Source of the DNA: a virus
Length of the DNA stretch: 23,024 bases
IMG/VR virus record: IMGVR_UViG_3300032092_000274
Location: 1-23,024 of that record
Strand: one strand, 5' to 3'
The notes beneath the pieces were generated by a model that saw only the letters and a list, made by a program, of their open reading frames with translations, did not search any database and was not told the origin of the DNA. The position numbers and the translations under genes were made by a program. Below, piece by piece: positions 9,101 through 19,974 of this stretch; within the stretch, counting starts at the first letter, position 1; every line of letters starts with the position of its first letter.

Positions 9101-9381
9101 AACGTACCCCCGCCAATTCCGTTCAAGGCTGTCAAATCGGTAAATTTGCCCGCGGCCGGTGTTGTTAGGCCAATGGTTGAATTGTTTATTACCGCATTGT
9201 CAATTGATACGTTGGCAATTGTGCCGCCCGTAATCACAATGTAAGCAATGGTGGCCGACAAAATGTCAGGGCTTTGCAGCCAAATAATCCATTCCCGCGC
9301 TGGCCGTCCGGTCGTTGGATCAAGGAATGCCGATTGCGGAAACCGAATGTTTGTCGATGACGCGGGATTGGGGGCAACCAT
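9097..9381 (-). CDS. 94-aa needle/fibre-anchor-like protein (gp26 position)
   Basis: ATG 9381 overlaps the gp10-like stop as TAATG and follows GGGGGATAAC. The N-terminal half has a pattern seen at the virion-proximal end of many phage tip or fibre proteins (FPQSAFLD, GR, WIIWLQ). The C-terminal half is beta-rich with INNSTIGLTTPAAGKFTDL (residues 65-83), a motif also present twice in the 733-aa fibre. It directly follows gp10, where P22 encodes the tail needle gp26 (233 aa), so a very short plug or needle, or a fibre adaptor, is inferred. No long coiled coil is present, unlike gp26. Confidence 0.62.
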   Translation of the reverse strand: MVAPNPASSTNIRFPQSAFLDPTTGRPAREWIIWLQSPDILSATIAYIVITGGTIANVSIDNAVINNSTIGLTTPAAGKFTDLTALNGIGGGTF

Positions 9382-10847
9382 TAGTTATCCCCCACCGACG
9401 CCTTTAGGTTTGCGGAAACAATCACGGCCTTGACCGGATCAGACACTACAACCTCAAAAATGCGGTCACGCGACCAACCCAGGCGTCGCCAAATGGCGCG
9501 GTTTTGATACCGGCCAATTTTGCCAATGGTGATCCAATGTTCGTTTGACCAGGTAGAACCGCCGTCATTTGACCAACGCAGCATGGCTTGGGGGTCTTCG
9601 CCCTGGCCGGTTGTAAGGCCAACGCCAGGTTGGAATTGGATTTGGAATTCCTCAAAAAACTGGCGTTGTAAATCCGTAGTCAGGTGAACCGCACGGCGCA
9701 AACGACGAATTGTTGAACCGTTGTCGGTGTAAACCGCGTTGTCCAGGCTGTAAATTTTGCCGTTTTCAAAGTCGCCGACCAGGTTCTTGCCAGCAAAGAA
9801 CGCATAGCAATTTGACCGGTGGCGGTAGTATCCGGCCACGTTGTCCCAGGAAAGCCATTTGTGCCATTGCTGCGTGGCCAGGTCATAAACCCATGTCAAA
9901 TCAATTGAAGGAAACGTCACGACATACATTTCGTGGCCTTCGATTTGGTAGGTATATGCAAACGCGTCGGATACGTCGGCGCCAACCAGGCTGTTTTCAA
10001 CCGCGTGGGTGGATGTTCGCACAAACGTGTAACCATTCACCGCGCCAATGATGGCCTGGCCGCGGGTGTCGCGGCTTACAAACATGAACGATTCACCAAA
10101 CCTGGCCACGGAATATTTGGCCGCGCAGCCGTGCTGCATGGTCGTGCCGCTTACCCGTTGAAACGGAAAAGTAATCAAGCCTGAAATTACGGTTCCAACG
10201 TCCACCCAAACTTCGGTGGTGACTTCGCCAAGCAAATAAACCTGGCGGTGGTCAACAATCAAAGCCACTAGGTTGTCAGGGGCGCCGTCTTTGCTGCCGT
10301 AGTTGCCCGTTGTGCTGACGGCAAGGCCAAGGTCAGTTGCCGCCCAATTTTGCGTGTTTGGTTCGTTGTAAATGATGTATGAATCCACCGTGTCGGTGGA
10401 CGTGGCGCCTTGCCACAAACCATCGGTTGAAGGCAGCGCGGTGAACGTGTTGGTGGCAGCCACCCAGGTATAACGGTTGGGGCCGTCCACAATGTAAGCG
10501 GTCAGGCCATTGTTGGTGGTCACGTTGTCGGTCATTTCAACCTGGCCGGTGCTGGTGGTCAGCGTTCCAATTTGCGTGGCCACAAAAGCGGTGGTGACGC
10601 TGTAAACGCGGTTGCCCACAACAACAACCAAATACTGGCTGCCGGACAACGCCCGCATTCCGCGCACTTCCGCTTGCCACAAAGCCAGTTCTTCAACCAA
10701 CCCAGGGGTAGGGTACAACGCAACAACGCCGCGGCTTCCAGGCTGCTTTGTGGGGTCAATTTCAGGATAAAAATTGATGCACTCTTGCGCGTCTTGGTAG
10801 ATTGACGGGGCTTCGTAAGAAGCGCCCACGAAGCCGAAGTCGGGCAT
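9381..10847 (-). CDS. P22 gp10-like packaged-DNA stabilisation / tail hub protein
   Basis: The protein has 488 residues; P22 gp10 has 472. The N-terminus matches the family (SYEAPSIYQDAQECINFYPE, then LYPTPGL at about residue 45). The remainder is a series of beta-propeller-like strands with repeated aromatic and Gly turns, as expected for the tail-accessory hub below the gp4-like ring. ATG 10847 shares a base with the upstream stop (TAATG) and follows GGGGGATTTG. Together with gp4-like and needle proteins it closes the portal and holds DNA in the head. Confidence 0.88.
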   Translation of the reverse strand: MPDFGFVGASYEAPSIYQDAQECINFYPEIDPTKQPGSRGVVALYPTPGLVEELALWQAEVRGMRALSGSQYLVVVVGNRVYSVTTAFVATQIGTLTTSTGQVEMTDNVTTNNGLTAYIVDGPNRYTWVAATNTFTALPSTDGLWQGATSTDTVDSYIIYNEPNTQNWAATDLGLAVSTTGNYGSKDGAPDNLVALIVDHRQVYLLGEVTTEVWVDVGTVISGLITFPFQRVSGTTMQHGCAAKYSVARFGESFMFVSRDTRGQAIIGAVNGYTFVRTSTHAVENSLVGADVSDAFAYTYQIEGHEMYVVTFPSIDLTWVYDLATQQWHKWLSWDNVAGYYRHRSNCYAFFAGKNLVGDFENGKIYSLDNAVYTDNGSTIRRLRRAVHLTTDLQRQFFEEFQIQFQPGVGLTTGQGEDPQAMLRWSNDGGSTWSNEHWITIGKIGRYQNRAIWRRLGWSRDRIFEVVVSDPVKAVIVSANLKASVGDN

Positions 10848-11821
10848 TATGCAAATCCCCCATCCATGATGAAACCGGCATCTTTTGATTTGCCCATTAA
10901 CAGCGTGTCAGGATAACGCGCCACTTGCGGCGGCCGCATATTGGTGCGTTTGATTGTCGCCTTTGCCTGGGCTGCCAACGAATTTATCATGGCCATTTGA
11001 ACCTGGTTCATTTTGCCAAACATAGGCAGCAACCGTTCAGCCAAACACCAGCGTAATGCGTTGATGTAACCAGGCGGCAATGCAATGTCGTCGGTCTGCG
11101 CCGTAAACGTGCGGAATTGCGTATAAGCAAAAATGTGCATTTCGCCTTGGGCGGGATTTGGCCAAACGTAAATTGTGCCAAGGTTTTCGCTTGCCTGGTA
11201 ATAAACGCCTTTTGGCCAGGGGCCGTTCAATTGCTTTAGGCCAATGGATTCGTATTGTTCTAGGGCAAAAATTGCCACGGGGTAATCCAGGCCGCCGCCG
11301 TAAATTGGGGCGCCATTGCTGGTTGTGGTCACGCGCACAAACGCTGATTCCAACGTCAGCGGCCGTTCGTAGTAACCCTGAATGGTTGTGCTGGCCACCG
11401 TTTGCGATTTGCTGACGGTGTACGTTCCCGCTTCGTTAACGTTGCCGCCGCCGCCGGTGTTGAAATTCACAATCGTGGTTCCGGCTGCAATGCCAGTTCC
11501 CGACAGCGTTTGGCCAATCGTGATGGCGCCGGATGTGACGCCGTTGGCGGGAATCGTCAGGGTTGTGCCGCTGATTGAACCGGTGAATGTGCAGCCGACC
11601 TGGCCACCTGGGCCAATGGTGTATTGCGTTTGGTTTTGAACGACGGGGAAAATGATTTCGGTTTTGTAAAAAACCATCATGTTTTCGTTCGACCATTGGG
11701 CGCACATATCGTTCAACATATCGTAGCCGTCTTGGGCTTCGTCAGCGGTTGGCACTTCGCCCGCGGCCAACGCGCCAATGTCTTTCATGGCGCGGGTAAC
11801 AATGTCAAACGGCGTGGTCAT
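10847..11821 (-). CDS. P22 gp4-like head-completion protein with beta-rich insertion
   Basis: The protein has 324 residues from ATG 11821. This start follows GAGGAATAAC and gives [18 protein letters not shown]; the frame is open further upstream but lies inside the preceding gene. The N-terminal 75 residues ([20 protein letters not shown], then QYTIGPGG) match gp4-type portal-ring adaptors, as do the [10 protein letters not shown] and [17 protein letters not shown] segments. P22 gp4 has only 166 residues. An insert at about residues 77-147 accounts for part of the excess. The protein probably binds the portal and recruits gp10 during head completion. Confidence 0.85.
11381..11593 (-). other. 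inserted Gly/Thr-rich beta domain within the gp4-like protein
   Basis: This covers residues about 77-147 of the gp4-like protein, between GPGG and [11 protein letters not shown]. The segment contains [26 protein letters not shown] and [14 protein letters not shown]. That pattern recurs in unrelated phage structural proteins and is not part of the P22 gp4 fold, so it looks like a shuffled surface domain. Boundaries are approximate. Confidence 0.6.
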
Positions 11822-12100: not shown

Positions 12101-13720
12101 TTAGTACAGATTATTAACAGCGCCAGCACTATCTTTCCACACTAATTTGCTTGCTGTGGTCGAATAATACAAAGTCGAATTAGGCGCATTTGCATCCGCA
12201 ACAGATGGAAAGTTTTGCGGTGTGCTGGTTGCCAACTTATCATTAAAAATGTACCAAGCATTAGCCTGTAATGCTGTTGCTGTTGCATACGAATAATTTG
12301 TACCCAAAGCACCAGCCAAAGTGGTTCCAATTATTTGCACATTTCCAGCGGCCGGAACGGCAGTTGCCGCATTTATTTTTATGCCAAATCTACCCGTTAC
12401 ATAAGATGCGTCATTTGTAATATTGTTGCCAATAAATTTAAAACTAGATGCTGCGGCAGATGGAATTAAGTAAACATAAGAATCGCCAACAGTTGCGCTT
12501 GTTAAATTGACCCTTACACCACTTGAGTTAAGGCCACCATTAGCGCAGTTGTTAAACGTGTTGCCAATCATTGTGATTGAAGTATACGAATTTCCTTTAA
12601 TTGCGTATCCAGCACTATCTTGAAAAGTGCATCCAACAATTGTGACGTTAGTTGGAAAACTATTGCTTGACGTGCTAATAGCCAAATCAGCGCACTCCCA
12701 ATTTGTACCCGTTCCAGCGGTTAAAAGGAAGCCAGTTAATGAAAAAGAACAATTTGTAAATGATACATTTCTTGCGTCACCAACTATGTTTCCAAATTTA
12801 TTCAATGCAAATTGACAATTAGTAAAACTGATGTTTGAACATTGCTCAATTATGATTCCATACTGGTTGTTTGGTTGACCACCACCGCCCGTACTAAAAC
12901 CATTGTTGCCAAATATGGTGTTAACAACGCCAATGTTTGTTCCTGTATTTGGGTCAATATCAAAAAGCCCTCCGATACCAGCAGCCGATGCTGACTGTTG
13001 GAAACAAGAGTTAGAAATAAAAATACCCGCAAGGGATTGATAAGGCTCTTGTGCAGCCGAACTATCTTGAAAAATTCTTACGCCATATAACGTGGCAGTC
13101 AAGGCGGTGCATTTATCTAAAACTGTATTAAATGTGTTATAGATAAAAAACCCACTAGCGTTTGCGTATTCAGAATCGCAATCGTTGTATTCAACCGCAC
13201 CGCCCTTTTGGTAAAACCCAATATCAGCACCACCAGCCCAACAACGATCTACCACATTAGGGCCAGCGCCGCCATTTTGGAAACACGCATAAGCCGCTGA
13301 CGCGCTTTCACAAGAAATGCCAATATCCGAAAGGCTATAACTTTCACCATTAAAAATAAGGCCCAATGCAACGTCAATGCCGACATTATTTTTAACAATA
13401 AATTTGGTTACCCAACGCCCCGCACCGCGCATTCGAAATGGTTGATATTGATATGGGCCAGCAAAACCATTGTTAAGATATAGCGCAAAATCTTTACTGT
13501 CAAAATTTCCATTGATGCTGTTTAACAAATAAGTGCCTCCTGGCACATATAATTCAAGTTGGTTTTGCCAAGCATAAGTCATGGCGGCTTGTATTTGTAT
13601 AGCGCAGTCAATTGTGGCTGTACCCGCCAAAACATCAACTTTTTGTGCCTCACTCAAAAAATCAAATACATTTACTGGCGATGCAGTAATCATTGAATAA
13701 GAAACTTTTGTTAACGACAT
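12101..13720 (-). CDS. pectate-lyase-like tailspike without head-binding domain
   Basis: The protein has 539 residues; ATG 13720 follows AAGGAATTAAAA. The N-terminus is the short SLTKVSYSMI tag often seen at the start of phage spikes. A parallel beta-helix domain opens with VDVLAGTATIDCAIQIQAA and ELYVPGGTYLLNS, followed by regular coils rich in N, G and S (for example CTFQDSAGYAIKGNSYTSIT). The C-terminus (TTASKLVWKDSAGAVNNLY) is a recurrent fibre ending. It has no P22-type head-binding domain, so it may attach to another fibre or the 823-aa spike. The probable role is binding or cleaving host surface polysaccharide; active-site residues cannot be assigned. The gene is clearly AT-richer than the structural genes around it. 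Confidence 0.82.
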   Translation of the reverse strand: MSLTKVSYSMITASPVNVFDFLSEAQKVDVLAGTATIDCAIQIQAAMTYAWQNQLELYVPGGTYLLNSINGNFDSKDFALYLNNGFAGPYQYQPFRMRGAGRWVTKFIVKNNVGIDVALGLIFNGESYSLSDIGISCESASAAYACFQNGGAGPNVVDRCWAGGADIGFYQKGGAVEYNDCDSEYANASGFFIYNTFNTVLDKCTALTATLYGVRIFQDSSAAQEPYQSLAGIFISNSCFQQSASAAGIGGLFDIDPNTGTNIGVVNTIFGNNGFSTGGGGQPNNQYGIIIEQCSNISFTNCQFALNKFGNIVGDARNVSFTNCSFSLTGFLLTAGTGTNWECADLAISTSSNSFPTNVTIVGCTFQDSAGYAIKGNSYTSITMIGNTFNNCANGGLNSSGVRVNLTSATVGDSYVYLIPSAAASSFKFIGNNITNDASYVTGRFGIKINAATAVPAAGNVQIIGTTLAGALGTNYSYATATALQANAWYIFNDKLATSTPQNFPSVADANAPNSTLYYSTTASKLVWKDSAGAVNNLY

Positions 13721-13735
13721 TTTTAATTCCTTTTT

Positions 13736-14962
13736 TTACGCAAAATACATTCCGGAAAATTCAAAATTTCCTGTTGCGGCATAGCCAGCAATTATGTAAA
13801 CATTGGTGTCGCTTGGCCCAATAAAAACAATTGCGCCCGCTGTTTGATTTGCAATAGTGCCGCTGCCTGTGCCTGACGCAGTTGACGTAAATGGCAAACC
13901 GCCAATATAACTACCAGCAGCCCCCGAAATGCTTGTAGACCCAATTACCTGGCCTCTAAAAAATACCTGTCTACCAATTTTGGTATATCTACCATTGCTA
14001 GAGAAAGTCCCAACAACCGTTTGATTGCCAACGGCTGGCGTCCAAGTACCTTCTTCATAGTCGGCCAACAATTCGCTGGTCATGCCAGCGGGGTGGCTAG
14101 TAATAGAAAAGTCTATGCCTTTGCCGGATGTGCCAATTACAAGGTTGCCTGTTTTGACTGTTACATCGCCAGCGGCTGCAACGTTTAATCGTTCAACCAA
14201 GTTGGTTACATCGCCATCGGGTGAAGTCCAAACGGTATAGTCTGATGCGGCATTTACGCCGTTTTTCAAAAACTTAGCACCAAACCAAATTGGTGTTGAA
14301 GCAATTGTCCCGTACCGAACGGCCCAACCAGCCAATTCACCAGCATTGGTTCCAACAGTTCCATTTTGAATATAACTTGTATATGTTTTTACTGCGTTTG
14401 GCGTTGTCCCCGTTGCGGTGGCTTGCACTTCAAACACCGATGCTGGCGTGTTGGTGACTACACCCAAACGATTGTTTGTGTCATCAAAAAATAAATTGGC
14501 ATTGTCTTGCGAATAAACACCCGATGCGCCAGCAAAAACAACCGATCCAGCGGTGAACGCCGTTGCCGTACCTGTGCCACCATTACCAACGCCTAATGTG
14601 CCGCTGATATGGGTTGTAAGGCCAATTTTTCCCCAGGAAGGGGCAACACCTACGCCGCCTGAAATTAACGCGTTACCTGTGGCCACGTCGGCCAATTTGG
14701 CCAGGCTTGTGGTGGTGTTTGCATAAAGAATGTCGCCCACCGCGTAAGATGTTTGGCCAGTACCGCCAGCCGTGGCCGGAACAACTTTCCAACCAATTAC
14801 CTGGATGGCGTTGGCATTGTCTTTGTAAAACAGTTTTCCATCGGTAATGTTGATGGCAAGTTCCGACCCCAAAGTGCTGTTGGTCAGATTGCCAACAGCG
14901 GGCGCATTTGTGGTCGTACTGCTGCTGTAAATTAAGATTGGGGTGTAACCGGTTTGTGCCAT
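13736..14962 (-). CDS. tail fibre protein
   Basis: The protein has 408 residues; ATG 14962 follows AGGGAAAAAAT. The N-terminal part (SELAINITDGKLFYKDN, then VPATAGGTGQTSYAVGDILY) is a standard trimeric phage-fibre segment. A shaft of Gly/Thr/Val-rich strands leads to a C-terminal domain with the recurrent DYEEGTWTPAVG and GRYTKIGRQVFFRG motifs, usually a receptor-facing tip. No intramolecular chaperone or enzymatic motif is seen. It lies between the two spike genes, and its first 250 coding bases look more GC-rich than the rest, consistent with tip exchange. Confidence 0.83.
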   Translation of the reverse strand: MAQTGYTPILIYSSSTTTNAPAVGNLTNSTLGSELAINITDGKLFYKDNANAIQVIGWKVVPATAGGTGQTSYAVGDILYANTTTSLAKLADVATGNALISGGVGVAPSWGKIGLTTHISGTLGVGNGGTGTATAFTAGSVVFAGASGVYSQDNANLFFDDTNNRLGVVTNTPASVFEVQATATGTTPNAVKTYTSYIQNGTVGTNAGELAGWAVRYGTIASTPIWFGAKFLKNGVNAASDYTVWTSPDGDVTNLVERLNVAAAGDVTVKTGNLVIGTSGKGIDFSITSHPAGMTSELLADYEEGTWTPAVGNQTVVGTFSSNGRYTKIGRQVFFRGQVIGSTSISGAAGSYIGGLPFTSTASGTGSGTIANQTAGAIVFIGPSDTNVYIIAGYAATGNFEFSGMYFA

Positions 14963-17449: not shown

Positions 17450-17773
17450 TTATCCCTTCAAATCCGGTGTGAACGTTTGGGGCGCCCAGGGCAGCGGTGT
17501 GACGCGCTGCGCTTTTAACGCGGCCAATTGTTCGTTCAGGCGCTTTTCAATCATGTTGGCGCCCTCTTGCATTGTTTCGGCCTGAACCCAGGCCACGATC
17601 ATGTCTTCGGTCACATCCGCAAATGGGACATTCAGTTTTGGTTCTTGAAACGTCCAAAAACCTTCCGTTTCAACAACCAAATCCTTGTCGCTGACGGTTG
17701 CAAAGTATTTTGCCCTGGTAATCAGTTCGCCATCGGGTGAATCAATGCCCAGGATTTTCCATTTTGTTGTCAT
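17450..17773 (-). CDS. DUF7936-like protein in the fibre cassette
   Basis: The protein has 107 residues; its start shares a base with the fibre stop (TAATG). The beta-rich N-terminus (KWKILGIDSPDGELITRAKY) is followed by the segment VTEDMIVAWVQAETMQEGAN and a C-terminus ending in VTPLPW and nearby prolines. This matches a small family (DUF7936 as I recall it) found beside tail genes of many podoviruses. The role is unknown; chaperone or minor tail component are possibilities. Its position between two receptor-binding genes favours a fibre-linked role. Confidence 0.7.
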   Translation of the reverse strand: MTTKWKILGIDSPDGELITRAKYFATVSDKDLVVETEGFWTFQEPKLNVPFADVTEDMIVAWVQAETMQEGANMIEKRLNEQLAALKAQRVTPLPWAPQTFTPDLKG

Positions 17774-19974
17774 TAAAAGTTGCCCCCGCCAGTTCCACCG
17801 GTCACGGTCAAAACGCCCGATGATGGATTAAATTTCAGTTTAGTCGAAGACACCTTCATCGGCAAGTTGCCGGTTGTACTGGTTACCCAGGACAAATACA
17901 TATCCGCGGCCGTGGTGGTGTCGTCCGTGATGCCGACATTCGTTGCGTTTGTTGCGTTTGTTGCACTTCCGGCGCTGCCGTCGATGTTCACGCCGGTCAA
18001 TGATTGGCTGGCGCTGCCGCGGTTCAATGCAATGGCCGTCGTGCCGATGTAAACCGTCGAATTTCCCAGGACGCCCGAAGGAATCGTGCCGGACAGTTGG
18101 CCAGCGGAAAGGCTGGTCAAGTTTGCGCCCGAACCCGTGAATCCGGTGGCCGTGAATTCGCCCGTTGAAGGGTTAAATTGCAGCCTGGTGGACGAAACGT
18201 ATTCGGTGGCCAGGTTGCCGGTTGTTTGGCTGGCAAACAGCGGATAACGCACCGCGTTGGTGGTCGTGTCGTCGGTGACGGTCGCGTAAGCGGTGGGCGT
18301 TTCCCATGTTGGCGTACCCGAACCAGCGGAAGTTAAAACTTTTCCAAGTGTTCCGGTTGAACCGTTGACGGTCAAGGCGCCGGTGAACGACAGCGTTGTG
18401 AAATAACCCGCGGCCGCCGTGGTGGCGCCAATCGACATATTGTTGATCGTGCCAAGGTTGGTCGGGGCAATCTCAATTGCACCCGTTCCTGTTGGCTTCA
18501 TGTGAACGTGGCCGGTTCCCGTGGGGCTTATGTCAATTTGCGCGTTTGCACCGTTGATGTTTGTGGAAACATCCAAAGTCAAATTATTACCACCGCCAGC
18601 GCCCCATTGCAATTGGGCCGTGCCGCCTGAATTACGCAATGCACCACCAGCACTTGTGGCAGCGTCAAAATAAGGGCCAACAAACTTTGTTGTGGCCGTG
18701 ATTGTTGTGCCTCTGACTGTGTTTGCAGTCGTTCCACCAATTGCTGGTGGCGCCGACAAATCCAACGTGCCGCCCAAAGTCAAATTGCCCGTGCTGGTGA
18801 CAGTACCCGACAAACTGATTCCGGACACCGTACCCGTGCCGCTGACCGACGTTACCGTGCCAACCGTAGGCGTTGCCCAGGTCGGAACACCGGCGGCCAA
18901 GGTCAACACCTGGCCATTGGCCCCAACAGCCAGGAAAGAAGTGGCGCCAGCGCCCGTTTGGTATGGAACCGAACCCAATGCACCACCAGCCAAATTTGTG
19001 GCCGTGGTGGCCGTTGTAGCCGTCCCCGCGTTGCCGGAAATCGAACCGGTGATCGTGTTGGTCACGGTCAAGTCGGTCAAAGTCCCTAGGCCGGTGATTC
19101 CGCTGTAAGAACCCGACAACCTGGCGCTGTCAAATGTTCCGCTGGTGACTTGGCTTGCAGCAATGGCAATGCTGGCATTGGCCGCCAAAGTCAATTGGCC
19201 CTGGGCGTTCACGGTGAACGTGGCCACCTGGGAAGCCGAACCGTAAGCAGCCGCGGTCACCGCGGTGTTGGTGATGCTGAATGTGTTGCCGGTCAGGGTT
19301 AACCCTGTTCCAGCCAAATACGAACCGGCGCCCGAAAACTGCGACCAAGTGATTGGCGTCACGTCAATTGTGCCGCCTTGGTTGGATGTGCAAACCCAAC
19401 CGGTATCACTTAGGGTTGTTCCTGATTCCACAAACGTGAACGCGCTTGGCACTTCGGCCCAGGTGTTCATGTCGGCGCTGCGCGTCCATCCGCTGGCGCT
19501 GGCCACATAAATGCCGTTGGCGGCCTGGTTGGTTTGGCTTTTGACCAGGATGCGGTCGCCCGCGGTCAGCGTGGCAACCCAATCACCACCAGCCTGGACA
19601 GCCAGGCCGGACAATGTAATGTTGTTTGTGGTCGCGTAAACGCACGACGCTTTCACGTCCAAGCCCTGGGCAATGGAATCGACGTAAGCCTTATTTGCAA
19701 TGTCGGTGTCGGCCGACGGGCTGGTGGCCACCTGGCCGGTAACGGCATAAATGCTGGTGAAATACGCCGCTGCTGGCGCGGTTCCACCGATCACGGACGA
19801 ATCAATCGTGCTATTGGTGATTGTCAAACCCGATTGAATCGGATCAATGGGCGGGAAAAACAAAGTTCCCGCGGGGCCAACAAACGCAATTAAGTCAAAC
19901 GTCGGTTCAGGTTGAAAAAGCCCCTGAACCGGTTTGATGTTCGTCGTGTTCGTAACAGCGGCGCTGTTCGACAT
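17773..19974 (-). CDS. long repeat-containing tail fibre
   Basis: The protein has 733 residues; ATG 19974 follows AAGGGGGCGCC. The N-terminal 75 residues (TNIKPVQGLFQPEP, then IGGTAPAAAYFTS) resemble the 94-aa needle-position protein and may be the virion anchor. Residues about 92-220 are a widespread fibre domain (ANKAYVDSIAQGLDVKAS, GDRILVKSQTNQAANGIYVA, DTGWVCTSNQGGT). Beyond this are Gly/Thr/Ser-rich triple-strand repeats, a second IGATTAAAGYFTTL motif at about 511-528, and two TDDTTT repeat units ending in GGTGGGNF. The fibre is the first gene of the fibre cassette and probably a long trimeric receptor-binding or adaptor fibre. No catalytic motif was seen. Confidence 0.85.
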   Translation of the reverse strand: MSNSAAVTNTTNIKPVQGLFQPEPTFDLIAFVGPAGTLFFPPIDPIQSGLTITNSTIDSSVIGGTAPAAAYFTSIYAVTGQVATSPSADTDIANKAYVDSIAQGLDVKASCVYATTNNITLSGLAVQAGGDWVATLTAGDRILVKSQTNQAANGIYVASASGWTRSADMNTWAEVPSAFTFVESGTTLSDTGWVCTSNQGGTIDVTPITWSQFSGAGSYLAGTGLTLTGNTFSITNTAVTAAAYGSASQVATFTVNAQGQLTLAANASIAIAASQVTSGTFDSARLSGSYSGITGLGTLTDLTVTNTITGSISGNAGTATTATTATNLAGGALGSVPYQTGAGATSFLAVGANGQVLTLAAGVPTWATPTVGTVTSVSGTGTVSGISLSGTVTSTGNLTLGGTLDLSAPPAIGGTTANTVRGTTITATTKFVGPYFDAATSAGGALRNSGGTAQLQWGAGGGNNLTLDVSTNINGANAQIDISPTGTGHVHMKPTGTGAIEIAPTNLGTINNMSIGATTAAAGYFTTLSFTGALTVNGSTGTLGKVLTSAGSGTPTWETPTAYATVTDDTTTNAVRYPLFASQTTGNLATEYVSSTRLQFNPSTGEFTATGFTGSGANLTSLSAGQLSGTIPSGVLGNSTVYIGTTAIALNRGSASQSLTGVNIDGSAGSATNATNATNVGITDDTTTAADMYLSWVTSTTGNLPMKVSSTKLKFNPSSGVLTVTGGTGGGNF
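17776..18279 (-). repeat. two-copy TDDTTT fibre repeat
   Basis: The protein repeat TDDTTT...TTGNL...SST.L.FNPS.G..T.TG occurs at 18142-18279 (residues 566-611) and at 17776-17931 (residues 682-733). The copies are diverged, so the duplication is old. A linker with NATNATN separates them and corresponds to a tandem GTTGCGTTT at DNA level near 17941-17960. Confidence 0.7.

Follow-up and report, generated by a model that had tools for sequence, protein, structure and literature searches.

Ig-like domains are the textbook case of a shuffled phage surface module. Unrelated phages carry them in tail, baseplate, major head and decoration proteins, and they are thought to be aids to adhesion (PMC7602432). 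Several types of phage neck, including the P22-like Type 3 neck, have been described (PMC4362835). Within the neck, the head-tail adaptors of SU10, T7 and KP32 have a long-tail-fibre dock domain, whereas those of P22 and Sf6 are without it, and the SU10 adaptor forms a dodecamer on the portal (PMC9509320).

The window analysed here (the whole stretch of viral DNA, 23,024 nt) encodes an adaptor which almost certainly carries a mobile, inserted beta domain. The features of the locus are:

10847 to 11821, minus strand: adaptor gene with its stop codon, encoding the 324-aa head-tail protein of P22 gp4 / Ad3 type (PF24175, phrog_12985, phrog_637; AlphaFold2 model)
11672 to 11821, minus strand: N-terminal half of the helix bundle, residues 1–50 (model helices 4–14 and 26–43; phrog_637 on residues 1–52)
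11603 to 11671, minus strand: first strands of the putative fibre-dock-like beta region, residues 51–73 (strands 53–59 and 66–69)
11372 to 11602, minus strand: whole insertion compared to module-less adaptors, residues 74–150 (alignment with adaptors of 232–275 aa)
11381 to 11593, minus strand: the beta module proper, almost certainly mobile, residues 77–147 (module profile; phrog_21413/phrog_38233; solo prediction with pLDDT 91.8)
11102 to 11371, minus strand: remainder of the putative fibre-dock-like beta region, residues 151–240
10922 to 11101, minus strand: C-terminal half of the helix bundle, residues 241–300 (model helices 250–267 and 273–294)
9381 to 10847, minus strand: Hc3 head-closure protein (P22 gp10 type), module-free here (phrog_578, E 5e-107)

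The 324-aa protein, with its gp4-type helix bundle and Hc3 neighbor, is an Ad3 head-tail adaptor of the P22 gp4 family. The AlphaFold2 model of the adaptor (68 sequences in, mean pLDDT 82) had its top structural match in P22 gp4 chains (9pgg/8u10; VIA Z 15.4, 111–124 residues), followed by T7, SU10 and similar adaptors (VIA Z 9–12, about 165–215 residues aligned). The flanks of the module matched the adaptor families PF24175 (SU10_adaptor, E 7e-9, spanning residues 141–294), phrog_12985 (3e-45) and phrog_637 (Ad3, 7e-6). Further, the Hc3 gene is located directly downstream of the adaptor gene and a P22_CoatProtein gene (PF11651, 4e-35) further upstream, and consequently the genes are assigned to a P22-like neck module. 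An earlier sequence-only reading had proposed a gp4-like portal adaptor, which is confirmed by these matches. Since the protein also shows SU10/T7-type matches, and a dock domain is known from SU10, T7 and KP32 but not from P22 and Sf6, residues 51–73 and 151–240 are read as a beta region probably resembling the SU10/T7 fibre dock. According to the alignment, its first part is common to module-less homologs and ends with the conserved YTIGPGG; in the second part, the model places strands at residues 154–168, 171–185, 205–209, 215–220 and 227–234.

In distant adaptors of 232–275 aa, YTIGPGG runs almost straight into the RP opening the next strand, and residues 74–150 are absent. The insertion is in frame, with both ends meeting at a beta-turn of the dock-like region, between YTIGPGG and RP. 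The sequence-only reading had singled out a Gly/Thr-rich segment at 11381–11593. This segment translates exactly from the minus strand as residues 77–147, and Gly plus Thr make up 42% of it versus 16% of the rest of the adaptor. These limits stand for the module, while the insertion as seen against module-less homologs is slightly larger (residues 74–150). The same reading ascribed part of the excess length over P22 gp4 to the module, which is correct but incomplete: the excess has two sources, the dock-like beta region, on which that reading was silent, and the module in a turn of this region. The module-less relatives already reach 232–238 aa because of the dock-like region matched by PF24175.

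Of 259 collected adaptor ORFs, including overlapping loci from the same contigs, 201 have one module, ten have two and 48 have none; these copy counts are biased, as the loci were collected partly with module queries. A query with the core only (the part after the module) gave 80 loci, 67 with one copy, 13 with two and 0 without. Since all 80 close relatives keep it, the module is fixed within this adaptor group, but it is not common to all gp4 homologs, being absent from most distant ones. PBR31-type adaptors (L140, L310–L322) have a different insert of the type VSGSGIPxGATVTAI at the same site, which shows a faint profile similarity to the module (hhalign probability 74%, 26 columns).

Predicted alone, the 77-residue segment gave a pLDDT of 91.8 and a pTM of 0.83, and within the whole-protein model the pLDDT of blocks of the module is 74–95, mostly 87–95. 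DSSP assigned four strands of three or more residues to the isolated model. Thus, the module is confidently predicted to fold independently of its host protein rather than as an integral part of the gp4 core. On its own, it matches not adaptor families but the middle of the profiles of two other families, phrog_21413 (E 8e-13) and phrog_38233 (“tail fiber protein,” E 7e-11). Our module profile found the window module with E 5e-25 and no second copy elsewhere in the 23,024 nt, the next-best match being at 0.6. Searched at E 0.1, 13 module sequences hit no Pfam family, hence no Ig-like family either. The sole solved chain convincingly matching just the module region is 8eci_1 of Arthrobacter phage Bridgette (VIA Z 7.5, 68 residues, rmsd 2.1, 31% identity, over adaptor residues 76–154), with a Z below 8, the level at which the alignment tool warns of common arrangements. 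A profile search of PDB sequences with the module returned chance matches only, and the Bridgette chain was not among them.

In the collected loci, the module profile detected 508 copies in 371 ORFs. The 160 module-bearing ORFs other than adaptors form 50 clusters with no detectable similarity to one another outside the module, which bears out the earlier suggestion of a domain shuffled among phage proteins. Copies per protein across the module-bearing clusters range from one to five, and the modules of these roughly 50 clusters are about 45–90% identical to the window copy and come from phages and assemblies of many bacterial phyla. The Hc3 cluster comprises 88 module-bearing ORFs; other carriers which could be named are baseplate J, DUF3383/tail sheath, a tail terminator (PF23961), cement and minor capsid proteins (PF22758/PF23982), Phage_capsid_4 (major capsid), a tailspike, a BNR protein and DUF2793. 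Nearly all of these carriers are plausibly exposed on virions. Several matches in bacterial genomes adjoin phage head genes, and a few are in bacterial proteins of giant size that also have Ig_7, GEVED or Laminin_G_3 domains. In named phages, tblastn with the window module found two records only, both gp4-type proteins annotated as “portal protein,” and tblastn with the consensus module found none, probably due to the low-complexity filter. No description of the module was found in the literature searched, most subscription papers being outside its scope.

Some further proteins were observed in this context. The window contains a beta-helix tailspike (12101–13720, phrog_2234), and a similar spike in another locus (L021:1156–2988), which starts with the same MSLTKVSYSMI, bears one module. 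Two fibre-like proteins of the window (17773–19974 and 13736–14962) are rich in GGTG-type repeats, and the 733-aa GGTG-repeat fibre-like protein matches phrog_2647, head decoration. A 1905-aa protein on a Nitrosarchaeum MAG contig (L251:214–5928), which may be a mis-binned phage contig, has a module beside an E1_FCCH match.

The Hc3 protein, free of modules in the window, has two to four copies in about half of the relatives. Where both neck genes were read, adaptor and Hc3 carry one and two copies, respectively, in 65 genomes, one and none in 59, none in either gene in 35, two and none in seven, and one and three or four in four; Hc3 modules next to a module-less adaptor were not seen among these genomes. 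Two-module adaptors (L088, L094, L096, L175, L177, L179, L189) never occur with Hc3 modules in the sample, which may be due to chance, several of them being related. A doubling of 12 adaptor copies gives 24, as do 12 adaptor plus 6 × 2 Hc3 copies; this agreement is not independent evidence. Parallel to adaptor and Hc3, a tail terminator and the nearby tail sheath both bear modules in L232 and L259.

A quick tree of the adaptor core without the module, having several long branches, implies at least five changes in the presence of Hc3 modules and at least five between the one-copy and two-copy state of the adaptor. The nearest relative of a module was found at the same site of another genome in 135 of 135 adaptor modules and 69 of 69 cases each for the first and the second Hc3 module. 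Two copies from one genome resemble each other no more closely than two from different sites of different genomes. The grouping of modules thus follows the site rather than the genome, which indicates that the adaptor and Hc3 sites acquired their modules early and have passed them on in place since; gene conversion among the copies of one genome is not supported. Across 214 pairs, the module had a median omega of 0.097, compared to 0.041 for the adaptor core. Thus, the module is under purifying selection, somewhat looser than that on the core. Its GC content differs mildly from the core (0.58 versus 0.52).

Being shared by carriers with no detectable similarity to one another outside it and spread over virion proteins of unrelated phages, the segment appears to be a reusable surface module and not a part of the collar proper. 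In the scenario we propose, a beta domain of about 65–70 residues would have been inserted in frame into the dock-like beta-turn in an ancestral phage of this group and then kept. By homology to adaptors that assemble as dodecameric rings under the portal, about twelve modules are expected per virion, and 24 in two-copy relatives, in line with the twelve-fold collar decoration suggested by the sequence-only reading; an insertion at a turn with adjacent ends would make them knobs around the collar, probably displayed on the surface. There, the module could act as a generic surface domain like Ig-like domains, adhering weakly to surface polymers of the host or the environment, a role that fits the range of carriers, nearly all plausibly exposed. 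Taken as a whole, this chain from a mobile, independently folding beta domain via display round the collar to a probably adhesive role is, in our view, evenly balanced between right and wrong, and adhesion appears only modestly ahead of reinforcement or fibre docking.

Reinforcement would mean that the same mobile domain contacts neighboring subunits, Hc3 or the capsid vertex in a cement-like manner and stiffens the neck. The structural similarity between the module region and a chain of Bridgette, which has dimeric capsid cement proteins (PMC13033339), points in this direction, although the chain is only putatively one of them, as do the fusions to the cement and minor capsid proteins PF22758/PF23982 and the presence of modules in both adjacent neck proteins. 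However, cementing makes little sense in tailspikes, BNR proteins or giant bacterial surface proteins, and other phages manage with module-less adaptors and Hc3 proteins; we therefore regard reinforcement as fairly unlikely. It is quite unlikely that the mobile domain remodels the fibre dock, becoming a docking or spacing element for collar fibres or spikes. The module does interrupt the beta region resembling the long-tail-fibre dock of SU10 and T7 (PMC9509320), but the dock assignment is itself putative and modules are also present in proteins without known docking role, e.g., capsid and sheath.

The many host proteins and the variable copy number would also be expected of a neutral or selfish insert which brings no benefit and is tolerated because of its place at a surface turn, and constraint is indeed weaker than in the core (omega 0.097 versus 0.041). 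On the other hand, an omega of about 0.1 is strong purifying selection, even if independent folding may by itself impose part of the constraint, and not one of the 80 close relatives lost the module, making a neutral insert very improbable. The 42% Gly plus Thr could suggest that low-complexity sequences match by composition and no homologous domain exists. This was ruled out for practical purposes by a control in which every ORF was shuffled in 70-residue blocks: the 21,310 composition-preserving sequences gave no match below E 0.085, against values down to 1e-27 for real modules. The confident predicted fold of the module likewise speaks against a composition artefact.

Should the module bind a surface polymer that is common, it would serve as a general adhesion tag, and should its role be reinforcement, as a general strengthening patch. 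Related adaptors with and without it at one and the same site constitute a natural experiment on the role of collar decoration.

Compared to known systems, the adaptor shares the helix-bundle core and a gene adjoining a gp10-type Hc3 with P22 gp4 and Sf6 gp7 (Ad3, Type 3 neck). However, those adaptors have about 150 resolved residues versus 324 aa here and have neither the dock-like beta region nor a module. The likeness to the adaptors of SU10 and T7 (gp11) consists of the PF24175 match and of T7 and SU10 chains aligned over about 165–195 residues, but the window adaptor has an extra 77-residue inserted domain, and fibre docking is hypothetical in its case. Bridgette 8eci_1 resembles the module region alone and is not an adaptor. 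phrog_21413 (595 positions) and phrog_38233 (896 positions) are whole-protein families with the module in mid-profile, where it is not defined as a domain. With Ig-like domains, the module has in common that small beta domains are spread over virion proteins of unrelated phages. Ig-like domains are beta sandwiches of 7–9 strands; the module is shorter (about 65 aa), shows four DSSP strands of at least three residues in the model and has no Pfam Ig match. Lacking a Pfam entry and spread over about 50 dissimilar clusters, it may represent an undescribed, widely used virion-surface domain and a second system beside Ig-like domains, a view for which we see equal grounds for acceptance and doubt; such a system would adorn virion parts from capsid and neck to sheath, baseplate and spikes, and neighboring structural genes would tend toward joint decoration, the adaptor with Hc3 and the tail terminator with the sheath.
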